This document shows positions 42,282 through 47,237 of a stretch of DNA of 64,000 bases, one piece after another (the first letter of the stretch is position 1; every line of letters begins with the position of its first letter). Source of the stretch: Burkholderia sp. BCC0506 (GTDB lineage: Bacteria > Pseudomonadota > Gammaproteobacteria > Burkholderiales > Burkholderiaceae); assembly GCF_902833145.1 (NCBI RefSeq), contig NZ_CADFEN010000004.1, forward strand, positions 310,001-374,000, in the 5' to 3' direction. The position numbers were made by a program, and so were the translations under genes. The notes below the pieces were generated by a model. It was not told the DNA's origin and made no database searches. It saw only the letters and a program-made list of their open reading frames with translations.

Positions 42282-44582
42282 TCACCCGATCCGCCACCAC
42301 CGCGGCAGCAGATTGCGCACTTCGCGCCGCCGGTAACGATCGTCGATCAAATGCACGACGCCCTCGTCGTGCTCGGTGCGGATCACGCGGCCGGCCGCCT
42401 GCACGACCTTCTGCAGCCCCGGATACAGGTACATGTAGTCGTAACCGTTGCCGAAGCGCGCATCCATCGCGCGCCGCATCTGCTCGTTGATGTCGTTGAC
42501 CTGCGGCAGCCCGAGCGTCGCGATGAACGCGCCGATCAGCCGCTCGCCGACCAGGTCGACCCCCTCCGAGAACGCCCCGCCCAGCACCGCGAAGCCGACG
42601 CCGCGTCCGCCCGCGTCGAAGCGCGCGAGAAACGCGTCGCGCTCGCTTTCGGCCATGCCGGGCGCCTGCGCCCACACGGGGACGTCCGGATGGCGCGTCT
42701 GCATCAGCGCGACCACGCGCCCGAGGTAATCGAAGCTGCTCAGGAAGCCGAGATAGTTGCCGGGGCGCGCCGCGTATTGCGCGGCGATGAGGTCGGCGAT
42801 CGGTTCGAGCGAACGATCGCGATCGCGCCAGCGCGTCGACACGTGGCTCGCGACGCGCACCGTCAGTTGTTCGGCGCGGAACGGCCCGTCGACGTCGAGC
42901 CAGCCCGTATCGCCGGGCAGCCCGAGCGTGTCGCGATAGAAATGGAACGGGCTCAGCGTGCCGGAGAACAGCACGGTCGTGCGCGCGGCTTCGTAGCGCG
43001 GCGCGAGGAAACCGGCCGGGATCACGTTGCGCACGCACAGCGTCGACTGGATGCGGCGCCGGCGGCCGGCCGCCGCGACGCCGTCGAGCGCGGGCTGGCG
43101 CGGCATCGGTTCGCCGTGCAGCGTCGCGTCGAAGATCGACGCGCTGTCGAACGCTTCGGCCAGCACGCCGAACTGGATCGCCTCGAAATGAAAGCGCAGC
43201 AGCGCGTCGTCGTTCGCGCGCGGTGCGTCGGTCAGGTGTTCGCCGATCGCCGCGACGAGGTTTTGCACGGCCGACACGATCGGGCCCGGCACGTCGGGAT
43301 AGGCCGCATAGCGCTCGGCCTGCGCGCGATTGAGCGTGCCCCACGCGCGGGCGAGCCGGTCGAACGCCTTGCGCAGCGCCGCAGGCGCGGCGTCGCGCGC
43401 GGCCGCGAACGCGAACGGATCGAGCGACGCGCTGTACATCTTGCGGGCGCGGTCGAGCAGGTTGTGCGCTTCGTCGACGAGCACGCCGACGCGCCACTGG
43501 TTCTGCTGCGCGAGCGTGTGCAGCATCGCGCTGCCGTCGTAGTAGTAGTTGTAGTCGCCGATCATCATGTCCGACCAGCGCGCGAGTTCCTGCGCCAGAT
43601 AGTACGGACAGACGTCGTGCGCGAGCGCGGCGGTGCGCACGGTATCGCGATCGAGCAGCCCGGCCTCGATCGCCGCGTCGCGCGCGGCCGGCAGCCGGTC
43701 GTAGAAGCCTTTCGCGAGCGGGCACGATTCGCCGTGGCACGGGTTGTCCGGATGCTCGCACGCCTTGTCGCGCGCGACGAGCTCCAGCACGCGCAACGGC
43801 AGCGCGGGCGTGCCGGCGCCGAGCGTCGTCGCCGCTTCAAGTGCGAGCGCGCGGCCGGGCGTTTTCGCGGTCAGGAAGAACACATGGTCGAGCTCGCCTT
43901 CGCCGCATGCCTTCAGCAGCGGAAACACGGTGCCGAGCGTCTTGCCGATGCCGGTCGGCGCCTGCGCCATCAGGCAGCGTTCGTCGCGCGCCGCGCGATA
44001 GACGGCGACGGCGAGCTCGCGCTGGCCGCTGCGGAACTGCCCGTGCGGAAACGCGAGCGCGCGCAGCGCCGCGTCGCGCGCGGCGCGATGGGCCGTCTCG
44101 CGTTCGGCCCAGCCGACGAAACACGCGCATTGCTCGGCGAAGAACGTCGCGAGCGTGCCGGCATCGAGCGTTTCCGTCAGCACCGTCTCGCGCTCCGACA
44201 CGATGTCGAAATACACGAGCGCGACGTCGATTTCCGCGAGGCCGCGCGCGTCGCACATCAGGTGCGCATAGACCTTCGCCTGCGCCCAGTGCAGCGCGCG
44301 GTGGTTGGCCGGCATCGCGTCGAGGCTGCCGCGATAGGTCTTGATTTCCTCGAGCCGGTTCGCCACCGGATCGTAGCCGTCGGCGCGGCCGCGCACGGTG
44401 AGCGTGCCCCACGTGCCGGTCAGCGCGATCTCGGTTTCGTAGCGCGCGCCGCGCTTCGACGTGACCGCGCCGTGGCCGGCGATGCCCTCGAGCGCGGTCG
44501 GTGCGGGCGTGAAGCGCAGGTCAAGATCGCCGCGCCGCGCGGTGAACTCGCACATCGCCCGCACCGCGACGACGTAGCTCAT
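42282..44582 (-). CDS. PD-(D/E)XK nuclease-helicase fusion, XPD/DinG-like with Fe-S cluster
   Basis: A 766-residue DNA repair protein. The first about 190 residues resemble a Cas4/RecB-type nuclease domain: GRADGYDPVANRLEEIKTYRG holds the D...ExK core and AQAKVYAHLM the QxxxY motif. Then comes an SF2 helicase of the XPD/DinG family: Walker A QAPTGIGKTLGTVF, the Fe-S cluster cysteines in CEHPDNPCHGESC and HDVCPYYLAQE, DEAH in VLVDEAHNLLD, FSGTLSPFHFY and QAAGRVIRTEHDEG. The start overlaps the stop of the FAN1-like gene by four bases (ATGA). Together with the upstream LexA box this indicates an SOS-induced repair operon. The nuclease part may be used for structure-specific cutting. Confidence 0.92.
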   Translation of the reverse strand: MSYVVAVRAMCEFTARRGDLDLRFTPAPTALEGIAGHGAVTSKRGARYETEIALTGTWGTLTVRGRADGYDPVANRLEEIKTYRGSLDAMPANHRALHWAQAKVYAHLMCDARGLAEIDVALVYFDIVSERETVLTETLDAGTLATFFAEQCACFVGWAERETAHRAARDAALRALAFPHGQFRSGQRELAVAVYRAARDERCLMAQAPTGIGKTLGTVFPLLKACGEGELDHVFFLTAKTPGRALALEAATTLGAGTPALPLRVLELVARDKACEHPDNPCHGESCPLAKGFYDRLPAARDAAIEAGLLDRDTVRTAALAHDVCPYYLAQELARWSDMMIGDYNYYYDGSAMLHTLAQQNQWRVGVLVDEAHNLLDRARKMYSASLDPFAFAAARDAAPAALRKAFDRLARAWGTLNRAQAERYAAYPDVPGPIVSAVQNLVAAIGEHLTDAPRANDDALLRFHFEAIQFGVLAEAFDSASIFDATLHGEPMPRQPALDGVAAAGRRRRIQSTLCVRNVIPAGFLAPRYEAARTTVLFSGTLSPFHFYRDTLGLPGDTGWLDVDGPFRAEQLTVRVASHVSTRWRDRDRSLEPIADLIAAQYAARPGNYLGFLSSFDYLGRVVALMQTRHPDVPVWAQAPGMAESERDAFLARFDAGGRGVGFAVLGGAFSEGVDLVGERLIGAFIATLGLPQVNDINEQMRRAMDARFGNGYDYMYLYPGLQKVVQAAGRVIRTEHDEGVVHLIDDRYRRREVRNLLPRWWRIG

Positions 44583-46273
44583 GCGGACACCCTCGCCGCC
44601 TCGGCGTGCGCGACGCCCTCGCCGGCCCACTCGACGTCGACGACACGCACCGGCATGCGATGCGCGAGGCAGTAGGCGAGCCAGCGCGTCTGATTGTCCT
44701 GCAGCCGGTCGCCGGGGCCCTTCACCTCGATCAGCTCGTAGCGGCGCTCGTCGGGCCAGAAGCGGACGAGATCGGGCAAGCCGGACCGGTTGCTGCGGAT
44801 ATCCGCGAGCAGGCGCGTGAACCACAGCCGCAGGTGTTCGGGCGGCAGGCACGCGAGCGCTTCGTCGAGCAGTTCGTCGGTCAGCACGCCCCAGAACACG
44901 AACGGCGACTGCAACCCGGCCTTGGTCGCGAAATGCCGGCGGATCGTGTCGCGGTACGCGCCCGAATCGAGCTGCGCGAAGCAGGCGTCGAAGGCCGCCG
45001 CGCGGCGCACGGCGAAATCGGGGGCGTGCAGGTCGGCCGGGCCGCGCTGGAACGGGTGAAAGAACGCGCCGGGCACGGCCGCGAACACGGGCTCCCAGCA
45101 CAGCAGCCCGAACAGCGAATTGATCAGCGTGTTTTCGACGTAGTGGACCGGCGACGCCGGTTGCGCGAGATGGTCGCGTACCGCGAATTCGACGCTGACG
45201 AACGCGTCGGGGCGCGCAAGCACGAGCGTCTCGCGCGGTACGTCCGTCGCGGCGGGCGCACGTTCGACCCGGTGGCCGGCGCGGCGCTGCAGGCGCGGCA
45301 GCATGCGCTCGACGCGCTGACGCTCCTCGTCGCTCTCGAAGCCGTTGCGCGCGTCGAGCGCGAGCGCCAGGGCGTCGCCGTCGCGCCCGCAGCGTTCGAG
45401 CACGCGGATACGCCGATGCCGGCTGCCGGGCCACGCGCTGCGCGTGTACGCGTCGAGTGCGGCGTCCCAGTCGGCGCGGCGTTCGCACGCCTGGCCGAGC
45501 GCGAACAGCAGCTTCGCGCGGCGGGTCGCGAGCCACGGTTGCGCGCAGTCGACTGCGTCCAGCGCGCGGAGCAGGTCGTCGAACGGCAGATCGTCGGGCC
45601 ACGCGTCGAGCGCGTCGCGGCACATCTGCAGCGCGAGATACGCGTCGACGTCGCCGCGCTGCTGGAACGCGCGCGACGACGGTGCGATCGGCACGCTTTC
45701 GTACTGGAACACGCCGAGATCGGCCAGCACGAACTCGCTCCAGTCCTGATGCAGGTTGCCGAAGAACATCAGCCGCAGCCGGTCGCACAGCGCGCCGACG
45801 GTCACGCGCAGCACGCGGTCGTCGGGCTGCGCGCACCACGCGTCGAGCGGTTGCGCGACGTCGTGCACCGGGCGCAGCCGCTCGAGCCAGTCGGCCTTGC
45901 GCTCACCCGCATGCGCGGCGAGCGACGGGAAGATCCGCAGCAGCTCGGCCTTGGTCGACAGCGCGAACAGCTCGTCGAGCGTGAGCGCCGGCGCCGGATC
46001 GACCCAGCCGAGCGCGACGAGCGGTGCGGCGGCGTCCAGCGTGCAGCCGATCTCGTCGTACACGAGCTTGCTCGCGCGGAAATCGGACCCGTTGCGCATC
46101 AGCATCCGCACGAGCAGCGCGCGCGACGCCTGCGGCAGCGTCGCGAACTGCCGGACGAAGGCGTGCTCGTGCGCGTCGAACAGGTCGTCGTAACGCTCGC
46201 CGAGCCAGGCGAGCGCGCGTTCGAAATTGGTCAGGTAGTAAAACGCCGGAGGCGTCGGCGAGGCAGGCGTCAC
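44579..46273 (-). CDS. FAN1-like VRR-NUC structure-specific nuclease
   Basis: A 564-residue homologue of Fanconi-associated nuclease 1. The C-terminal VRR-NUC domain (about 450-555) shows the catalytic pattern GLPDLVRFWPDERRYELIEVKGPGD (PD...ExK), with the trailing RLQDNQTRWLAYC helix. The middle (about 130-400) is helical TPR-like, and the N-terminus holds FYYLTNFERALAWLGERYDD typical of bacterial FAN1. FAN1 cuts 5' flaps and unhooks interstrand crosslinks. The start is GTG at 46271-46273, because a stop is four codons upstream in frame. Its promoter carries a near-ideal LexA box, and the helicase gene overlaps its stop. Confidence 0.92.
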   Translation of the reverse strand: MTPASPTPPAFYYLTNFERALAWLGERYDDLFDAHEHAFVRQFATLPQASRALLVRMLMRNGSDFRASKLVYDEIGCTLDAAAPLVALGWVDPAPALTLDELFALSTKAELLRIFPSLAAHAGERKADWLERLRPVHDVAQPLDAWCAQPDDRVLRVTVGALCDRLRLMFFGNLHQDWSEFVLADLGVFQYESVPIAPSSRAFQQRGDVDAYLALQMCRDALDAWPDDLPFDDLLRALDAVDCAQPWLATRRAKLLFALGQACERRADWDAALDAYTRSAWPGSRHRRIRVLERCGRDGDALALALDARNGFESDEERQRVERMLPRLQRRAGHRVERAPAATDVPRETLVLARPDAFVSVEFAVRDHLAQPASPVHYVENTLINSLFGLLCWEPVFAAVPGAFFHPFQRGPADLHAPDFAVRRAAAFDACFAQLDSGAYRDTIRRHFATKAGLQSPFVFWGVLTDELLDEALACLPPEHLRLWFTRLLADIRSNRSGLPDLVRFWPDERRYELIEVKGPGDRLQDNQTRWLAYCLAHRMPVRVVDVEWAGEGVAHAEAARVSA

Positions 46274-46285
46274 GGGGATCGATCA

Positions 46286-46301
46286 CTGTACATTTGTACA
46301 G
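46286..46301. promoter_or_regulatory. LexA/SOS box CTGT-N8-ACAG
   Basis: CTGTACATTTGTACAG is a perfect 7-2-7 inverted repeat fitting the LexA consensus CTGT-N8-ACAG, 12 bases upstream of the GTG start of the FAN1-like gene. It is embedded in the only AT-rich stretch of the promoter region. It should place the nuclease-helicase operon under SOS control. Confidence 0.85.
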
Positions 46302-46361
46302 GTCGCAATCATATCAAATGTGACGGGCGATGCCCCACGCGACATCGCCTGCCCGCCCCCG

Positions 46362-47237
46362 TCAGAACTGGTAATTCACCGACATGTCGAACACGCCGTT
46401 GGTCGACTGCTGCGTGATCGGGCTGCGCGCGGCGCGGCCGACGAGCTGCTCGATCGCGCCGTCCATCGTGACGAACCAGTGCTTGTTGACGAACCACACC
46501 ATCGTCACGCCGAGGCCCGCCGACTTGATCCCGGCGCCCGACGAATAGGCCGGCAGCCCCGAGCGCGCGGACGCGCCCTGGTTCACGCCGAACCAGCTGT
46601 TCATGTAGCGCGAGTCGGCGAACGACACGGTGGGCCCCGCGAACCAGAAGAAGTGCTCGTTGCTGCCGGGCATCGGCATGTACGCGGAGAAATCGCCGGT
46701 CCAGCCGTTCGACCCGCCGATACTGCGCCGGACGTCCGCGCGCAGCACGAGCGGGAAATCCTTCGAGACCACGTAGTCGGCCGCGAGCTTCATCACGGGC
46801 GCCGCGTTGATGTTGTCGAGCCCGTTCAGGTGGCCGAGATCGTCGGCCGAACGGCGTCCGAGGTCGTAACCGACGGACAGGCTCACGCGCCAGTTCGGCC
46901 CGCGCAGCACGTTCGCGCCGAGCCCCTCGCCGGTCGACAGGAAGAACAGGTCGCGATAGCGGATGTCGACATTCGGGCCGCCCATCACGCGATAGCGGTC
47001 GGAGCCCGCATAGCGCGGCTGCAGCGTCATCGCGGCACCGACGCTCACCTGCCACGTGGGGATGTTCGGATCGAAGAGTTTCTGGAGCGGTACGCCCGCC
47101 GTGTATTGCCATTCGCCGAGCGGCGAAGGCGTCTGGGCCGACGCGTCGCGGGCGCCGGCGGCGGCGAGCGCCGCGAATGTCGACAATACGAACCGGCGAG
47201 CGCCGGGCGACTGCAACAGGCGAGCAACAGTGGTCAA
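46362..47237 (-). CDS. MipA/OmpV-family outer membrane protein
   Basis: A 291-residue outer-membrane beta-barrel of the MipA/OmpV family, which includes the MltA-interacting scaffold protein. A signal segment (VLSTFAALAAAGARDASA) ends about residue 36. Body features: VSVGAAMTLQPRYAGSDRYR, VDIRYRDLFFLSTGEGLGAN, KLAADYVVSKDFPLVLRAD and the barrel-closing FDMSVNYQF ending in phenylalanine. The most plausible start is TTG at 47235-47237, with CGGAGA seven bases upstream; ATG at 47333 would add a cytoplasmic-looking basic lead before the signal. Function is unproven. Confidence 0.85.
   Translation of the reverse strand: MTTVARLLQSPGARRFVLSTFAALAAAGARDASAQTPSPLGEWQYTAGVPLQKLFDPNIPTWQVSVGAAMTLQPRYAGSDRYRVMGGPNVDIRYRDLFFLSTGEGLGANVLRGPNWRVSLSVGYDLGRRSADDLGHLNGLDNINAAPVMKLAADYVVSKDFPLVLRADVRRSIGGSNGWTGDFSAYMPMPGSNEHFFWFAGPTVSFADSRYMNSWFGVNQGASARSGLPAYSSGAGIKSAGLGVTMVWFVNKHWFVTMDGAIEQLVGRAARSPITQQSTNGVFDMSVNYQF

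Follow-up and report, generated by a model that had tools for sequence, protein, structure and literature searches.

A FAN1 nuclease and an EndoDinG-type nuclease-helicase in an overlapping gene pair of Burkholderia with a predicted LexA operator

Gene organisation and protein domains

The DNA analysed, referred to here as the window, is a stretch of 64,000 nucleotides from Burkholderia sp. BCC0506. Two overlapping genes on its minus strand form a putative operon. The first (44579..46273) encodes a FAN1 nuclease of 564 amino acids and starts with the GTG codon at 46273, with no earlier start codon in the open frame; the aligned start is GTG in all 36 same-genus loci, the window's own included. 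By eye, there is no clear ribosome-binding site ahead of this GTG. A segment comprising positions 46274–46361 separates it from the end of a MipA-family gene at 46362. The second gene (42282..44582, minus strand, ATG at 44582 and stop at 42282) encodes a protein of 766 residues, in which an EndoDinG-type PD-(D/E)XK nuclease precedes an Fe-S XPD/DinG-like helicase. The two genes share the letters ATGA (44579..44582, minus strand), the ATG of the helicase gene being placed on the TGA of the FAN1 gene. This overlap had been noted in the original prediction and is suggestive of translational coupling.

The first protein contains the Pfam domains FAN1_HTH, FANC_SAP and, at its carboxy-terminus, VRR_NUC, all above the curated cut-offs, which bears out its initial naming as a VRR-NUC/FAN1 nuclease. 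No NCBIfam family was found for it. In a phmmer comparison it aligns over residues 3–550, nearly its full length, with the FAN1 of Pseudomonas aeruginosa (PaFAN1, PA1865; PDB entries 4r89, 4r8a and 5y7g), with an E-value of about 1e-182 for 4r89 and 5y7g. The best of the remaining FAN1 chains, which we take to be eukaryotic, reaches 5.5e-22. The VRR-NUC motif PD...E-V-K is formed by Pro500-Asp501, Glu516 and Lys518, presumably the catalytic residues, and the aligned letters of PaFAN1 are identical. Bacterial FAN1, which is related to the human crosslink-repair nuclease of that name, is known mainly through structures and test-tube work. On the strength of this kinship, the window protein would be a 5'-flap and crosslink-unhooking nuclease.

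For the second protein, the Pfam domains DEAD_2 and Helicase_C_2 score above cut-off, in a scanned frame of 1185 amino acids with both domains inside the 766-residue part; NCBIfam returned helicase models only, all below their cut-offs. Its best relative of known structure is PDB entry 9kqh, a "DNA 5'-3' helicase" of 748 amino acids, with an E-value of 1e-97 and a match that covers the amino- and carboxy-terminal parts (residues 5–388 and 533–764). When the window protein was aligned with 26 sequences hand-picked from the 80 named loci described below, the nuclease residues His37, Glu51, Asp68, Glu79 and Lys81 were invariant in all 27. The same holds for the helicase residues Cys275, Cys282, Cys287 and Cys325 (the Fe-S site, which falls in the helicase part), Lys214 (Walker A) and Asp370-Glu371-His373 (the DEAH box).

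A PD-(D/E)XK nuclease with the residues H, E, D, E and K, joined to an Fe-S helicase, defines the EndoDinG subgroup in a review (PMC11981726, section 3.7). The window protein fits this subgroup, with which it shares the amino-terminal nuclease and the four-cysteine Fe-S site, the five nuclease residues having been equated with those of the review by their order and not by structure. The fusion of a nuclease to an Fe-S XPD/DinG-like helicase, read originally from the translation, therefore stands, supported by Pfam and the 9kqh match, while its nuclease is better described as EndoDinG-type PD-(D/E)XK than as Cas4-type. Section 3.7 of the review makes no mention of LexA control or of a FAN1 partner for EndoDinG, and the terms FAN1 and VRR are absent from its text.

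The pairing of the two genes is nearly constant. Named genomes were scanned for relatives and the best 80 of 286 were kept, with labels of Burkholderia, Paraburkholderia, Trinickia and one Rudaea MAG. In all 80 of these loci FAN1 is followed by a helicase match, counting one in which the match begins at residue 175 (L117) and three that end at contig edges (L096, L099 and L108). In the Pseudomonas family, 39 of 42 loci, including that of a P. aeruginosa-like genome (L222), have the helicase gene downstream of FAN1 in the same orientation. Three of the 39 genomes of this family (L342–L344) have FAN1 and the box described below, with no helicase match in the 5.8–8.7 kb fetched downstream.

The predicted operator

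The sequence CTGTACATTTGTACAG, at positions 46286..46301 and without assigned strand, is a predicted LexA operator (SOS box), on the basis of its pattern, its conservation and its score among the boxes of the same genome. It is an inverted repeat of 7-2-7 bases with perfect CTGT and ACAG ends and differs from CTGTATATATATACAG at 3 of 16 positions. The original prediction had placed a CTGT-N8-ACAG repeat here, 12 bases upstream of the GTG; both the repeat and the distance are as described, and this is the sole exact site of the kind in the 64-kb window. After dinucleotide shuffling of the window, exact sites occurred 0.15 times on average, with at least one in 14 of 100 shuffles, while sites with up to three mismatches to the ideal palindrome averaged 0.01. 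The occurrence of one box in the window is thus unusual, and chance alone could give it; what raises it above chance is its conservation and its score beside the genome's own boxes.

An extended -10-like element, TG-A-TATGAT (46308..46316, minus strand), ends 6 bases ahead of the box; it was recognised by its consensus and its function is putative. Among 77 loci aligned on the box, 68 have a TATGAT or TATCAT hexamer that stops 2–6 bases short of it, which would place the transcription start inside the box. Control of the upstream MipA-family gene by the box was ruled out, since this same-strand gene has its end at 46362. A box serving the helicase only is unlikely, since the three Pseudomonas-family genomes without a nearby helicase match keep the box before FAN1.

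Comparison with other boxes of the genome

The 7.29-Mb genome contains 30 exact CTGT-N8-ACAG sites. The reversed pattern gives 24, so many of the 30 are due to chance. The genes adjoining them include lexA (with two boxes), recA, uvrA, a radical-SAM gene and a tyrosine recombinase gene. A score matrix was trained on six boxes, namely the two of lexA and those of recA, uvrA, the radical-SAM gene and an imuA-like gene (the latter named by eye, without a Pfam match), with the FAN1 box excluded. The matrix splits the 30 sites into 16 that score at least 19.3 and 14 that score at most 14.0, with a gap between. The FAN1 box scores 22.3 and ranks 12th of 30, next to the second lexA box with 22.4.

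Two Helicase_C_2 genes were found in the genome, and an exact box precedes the operon only for the one linked to FAN1. For the other, no CTG-N10-CAG is present in the 3.5 kb fetched, which include about 850 bases of DNA upstream of the open frame.

Conservation in Burkholderia and related genera

Of 37 same-genus genomes, with the own genome counted, 36 have FAN1; among 24 same-order genomes, one has it. The exact box is found in 33 of these 37 FAN1 loci, again with the own locus counted. It lies 11–13 bases before the aligned start in L001–L031 (the window's own locus and the 30 nearest to it) and in L034, and 52 bases before it in L037. Four of the 36 same-genus loci (L032, L033, L035 and L036, from genomes G033, G006, G029 and G032) have no box at the aligned place; in all four genomes the boxes of lexA itself are intact. 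Loss of the box in these loci and in L101 and L102 (see below), with the FAN1 open frame and the lexA boxes kept, perhaps represents a natural release of the operon from SOS control, and these Burkholderia could serve as natural controls.

In the named set, 79 loci have upstream DNA (L092 was dropped), and the box was sought from 250 bases before to 60 bases after the aligned start. An exact box is present in 73 of the 79, in the form of 11 different 16-mers. Elsewhere in the same loci there are three exact sites in 675,437 bases, a rate from which about 0.11 would be expected by chance in the 79 loci, compared to the 73 observed. The original prediction had named conservation in orthologous promoters as one of the points on which it would stand or fall, and there the box has held. 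Four Paraburkholderia loci (L095, L103, L131 and L135) have the right half of the box intact and the left half altered, and no box was found in L101 and L102 (Burkholderia singularis and Burkholderia sp. TSV86). Many genomes occur in both the same-genus and the named set, so the two counts are not additive.

To separate conservation of the box from that of its surroundings, 77 loci were aligned on the box (the 73 exact ones and the four altered ones, without L092, L101 and L102), of which 30 have flanks that are less than 60% alike. In these 30, the information content is 0.18 bits per column in the far upstream flank, 0.58 in the 20 bases before the box and 0.27 after it. The 8-base core reaches 1.59 and the half-sites 1.86; the latter value is partly fixed by the alignment method, of which the core value is free except for the three altered loci among the 30. 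In two of the four loci with a replaced left half (L103 and L131), similar GCTAAATGGATAGC-like letters abut the box, a pattern that would fit the insertion of a mobile or repeated element.

The box in the Pseudomonas family and other Gammaproteobacteria

In a sample of genomes from the class, FAN1 was found in 18 of 368 other genomes. An exact box lies near the start in three of these 18 loci (L150, L154 and L164), and two more (L162 and L163) differ from it by a single half-site letter; hardly any upstream DNA is available for L153. In L164 (genome G203, FAN1 23–24% identical) the exact box is embedded in a palindromic stretch of about 40 bases (CTACGTTTAAATACTG...CAGTATTTAAACGTAG) and may be something else than a LexA box.

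Family f185 was taken as the Pseudomonas family from a single genome, G940, whose FAN1 shares 93% identity with PaFAN1. FAN1 is present in 257 of its 298 genomes. All 42 loci fetched, mostly top-scoring matches and representing 39 genomes with three fetched twice, carry a CTG-N10-CAG with at least 11 of 16 ideal letters, compared to one such site in the remaining 184.5 kb. A further 40 loci were hand-picked from lower down the list, a non-random choice made to lessen the bias towards top matches; 37 of them have the box, where shuffles predict 0.16, and in the remaining three a site with one deviating letter was seen by eye. All 25 genomes of the genus of G940 have the box (26 rows, one genome occurring twice, and overlapping the other sets of this family). 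The boxes before lexA in eight genomes of the family, for example CTGTATATAATCCCAG, share the style of the FAN1 boxes. In L222 the FAN1 box is CTGTATGCATGAACAG; a LexA-type box thus precedes a gene 93% identical to that of PaFAN1 (G940, L222). One genome of the genus of G940 (G992, loci L275 and L276) has its FAN1 divided over two frames and keeps the operator.

Family f196, which we guess to be Halomonas-like, has FAN1 in 105 of 121 genomes. Its box is mostly degenerate, with 5 of 39 loci passing the strict test and 18 of 39 the relaxed one. The lexA promoters of four of five genomes of this family (L325, L326, L328 and L336) contain no CTG-N10-CAG, so its LexA may read another sequence. Stretches of CTGTATAC... 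recur in the lexA promoters of L325, L326 and L328, which suggests a changed LexA operator.

Regulation of the operon

When these comparisons are taken together, it is very likely that the FAN1-EndoDinG operon is under LexA control, as had been proposed from the window alone. Two bacterial groups retain the box, which resembles the lexA boxes of each and sits at the predicted promoter; this combination strongly supports the proposal. The operon is very probably a little-noticed member of the SOS response in both groups.

Published expression data bear on this reading in two ways. In a study of the P. aeruginosa UV response (PMC12796719), PA1865 (FAN1) and PA1866 belong to a set of 18 genes induced by UV-C, and ciprofloxacin also induces PA1865. 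Hydrogen peroxide represses PA1865 while SOS genes rise. The authors group PA1865 and PA1866 with genes under no known LexA-like repressor, outside the LexA regulon, and propose additional regulatory layers with control specific to the type of damage (PMC12796719). Judging from the gene order in L222, PA1866 would be the helicase gene. A LexA-type box may then explain the UV-C induction of both genes, and would offer a testable account of this gap in the UV response, the induction of two genes assigned to no known LexA-like repressor. A model with LexA only fails to explain the repression by peroxide, which slightly lowers our trust in LexA control and gives more weight to a second regulator.

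Earlier literature touches the operon at its margins. In 2012, LexA sites were predicted in the promoters of beta-proteobacterial "Helicase c2" genes (PMC3323433, a paper whose text lacks the terms VRR and nuclease). This locus is probably of the window's operon type, because the FAN1-linked gene is the only Helicase_C_2 gene here that has an exact box; the second Helicase_C_2 gene was rejected as the 2012 target, having no CTG-N10-CAG nearby. In the covered part of PMC10714927, PA1865 appears only as the edge of a deletion, and the covered part of PMC10710452, on B. cenocepacia and mitomycin C, does not contain the terms RNA-seq or transcriptome. FAN1 was not found named as a LexA target in the open-licence literature searched, as far as its texts were covered.

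Proposed function

From the above we infer LexA binding, induction in Burkholderia sp. BCC0506, joint action of the two proteins and crosslinks as their main target, in the following order of events. LexA would bind at 46286–46301, over the presumed transcription start that follows the extended -10 element, and block transcription. Upon DNA damage, RecA-driven cleavage of LexA would lift the repression, and FAN1 and the EndoDinG nuclease-helicase would be made together from a single message. FAN1 would then cut 5' flaps and unhook interstrand crosslinks, as reported for the P. aeruginosa ortholog, with EndoDinG unwinding and cutting the structure, either opening it for FAN1 or clearing the remnant. 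A dedicated joint crosslink-repair module of FAN1 and the nuclease-helicase is plausible, given the overlapping genes and the presence of the helicase beside FAN1 in 80 of 80 and 39 of 42 loci. More far-reaching is the combined proposal that the pair forms an SOS-induced, UvrABC-independent crosslink-unhooking pathway of Burkholderia- and Pseudomonas-type bacteria and that PA1865-PA1866 are unrecognised direct targets of LexA; we put this forward tentatively, its chances being somewhat below even.

If true, the pathway would be a bacterial counterpart of the Fanconi nuclease step as linked to a FANCJ/XPD-type helicase. LexA control would assign bacterial FAN1 to a known damage response, together with a partner gene that is nearly always present, and a genetic system would be at hand for studying its role in crosslink repair beside a nuclease-helicase. 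Bacillus subtilis MrfAB also combines a helicase with a nuclease for mitomycin repair, from protein families unlike FAN1 and EndoDinG, and is not known to us to be under SOS control. For dinG and yoaA of E. coli, we know of neither an amino-terminal nuclease domain nor a FAN1 partner; both encode XPD-like helicases under LexA, according to PMC11981726.

Among the alternatives, the most serious, a real possibility if not the favoured one, accepts LexA binding and lets the operon serve stalled forks, flaps and double-strand ends in general, with EndoDinG and FAN1 perhaps acting separately. UV-C and ciprofloxacin, which induce PA1865 (PMC12796719), are neither of them classical crosslinkers, and the nuclease domain of EndoDinG has been likened to those of RecE, EXO5, Cas4, AddA and Dna2 (PMC11981726). 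The occurrence of FAN1 and box in L342–L344 without a downstream helicase match likewise argues for separate roles. What speaks for crosslinks instead is the kinship of the window protein to PaFAN1, for which unhooking was reported in work cited by PMC12796719.

It is unlikely that the palindrome is read by another repressor, or by LexA with a second regulator beside it, and not by LexA alone. The opposite response of PA1865 and the SOS genes to peroxide, and the damage-type-specific regulation proposed in PMC12796719, are the points in favour of this reading. They are outweighed by the agreement of the 16-base pattern and its score with the lexA, recA and uvrA boxes of the genome, and by the CTG-N10-CAG forms of the FAN1 boxes in the Pseudomonas family, which are like those of lexA there.

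A role of the operon as an SOS-controlled anti-phage defence module, to which the match of the helicase to the PADLOC model PDLC01439 (type IV CRISPR DinG) at 4e-112 might point, is very improbable. PADLOC gives no match for FAN1, and the distribution of FAN1 over the same-genus genomes (36 of 37, own counted) is not patchy. The immediate surroundings are not those of a type IV-A csf/CRISPR locus, the neighbours being FAN1, MipA and IclR-type genes, and between 36 and 54 kb there are only two-copy repeats and no repeat array. A mobile or phage origin was rejected as well: a scan of viral contigs revealed no close relatives, and of 11 matches in plasmid records, 10 are in non-mobilizable ones and nine in records of more than 1.5 Mb. 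Automatic defence annotation may, as the PDLC01439 match illustrates, label such chromosomal repair genes as parts of CRISPR type IV systems.

Finally, a chance match kept only through close kinship, conceivable from the 14 in 100 shuffled windows with a site, is rejected as very unlikely, given the 73 boxes seen where about 0.11 were expected, the scrambled flanks around a kept box and its recurrence in the distant Pseudomonas family.

Further boxes in the Burkholderia sp. BCC0506 genome

High-scoring LexA-type boxes also precede a DUF2471 gene and several open reading frames without a Pfam match (L052, L045, L046, L049 and L063), which are candidate new SOS genes. The tyrosine recombinase mentioned above (L062:183-1196, contig C19), a phage integrase by Pfam, begins 12 bases past CTGTTTTTTTGTACAG. 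By eye it resembles a class 1 integron integrase, and integrases of that class are known for LexA control.
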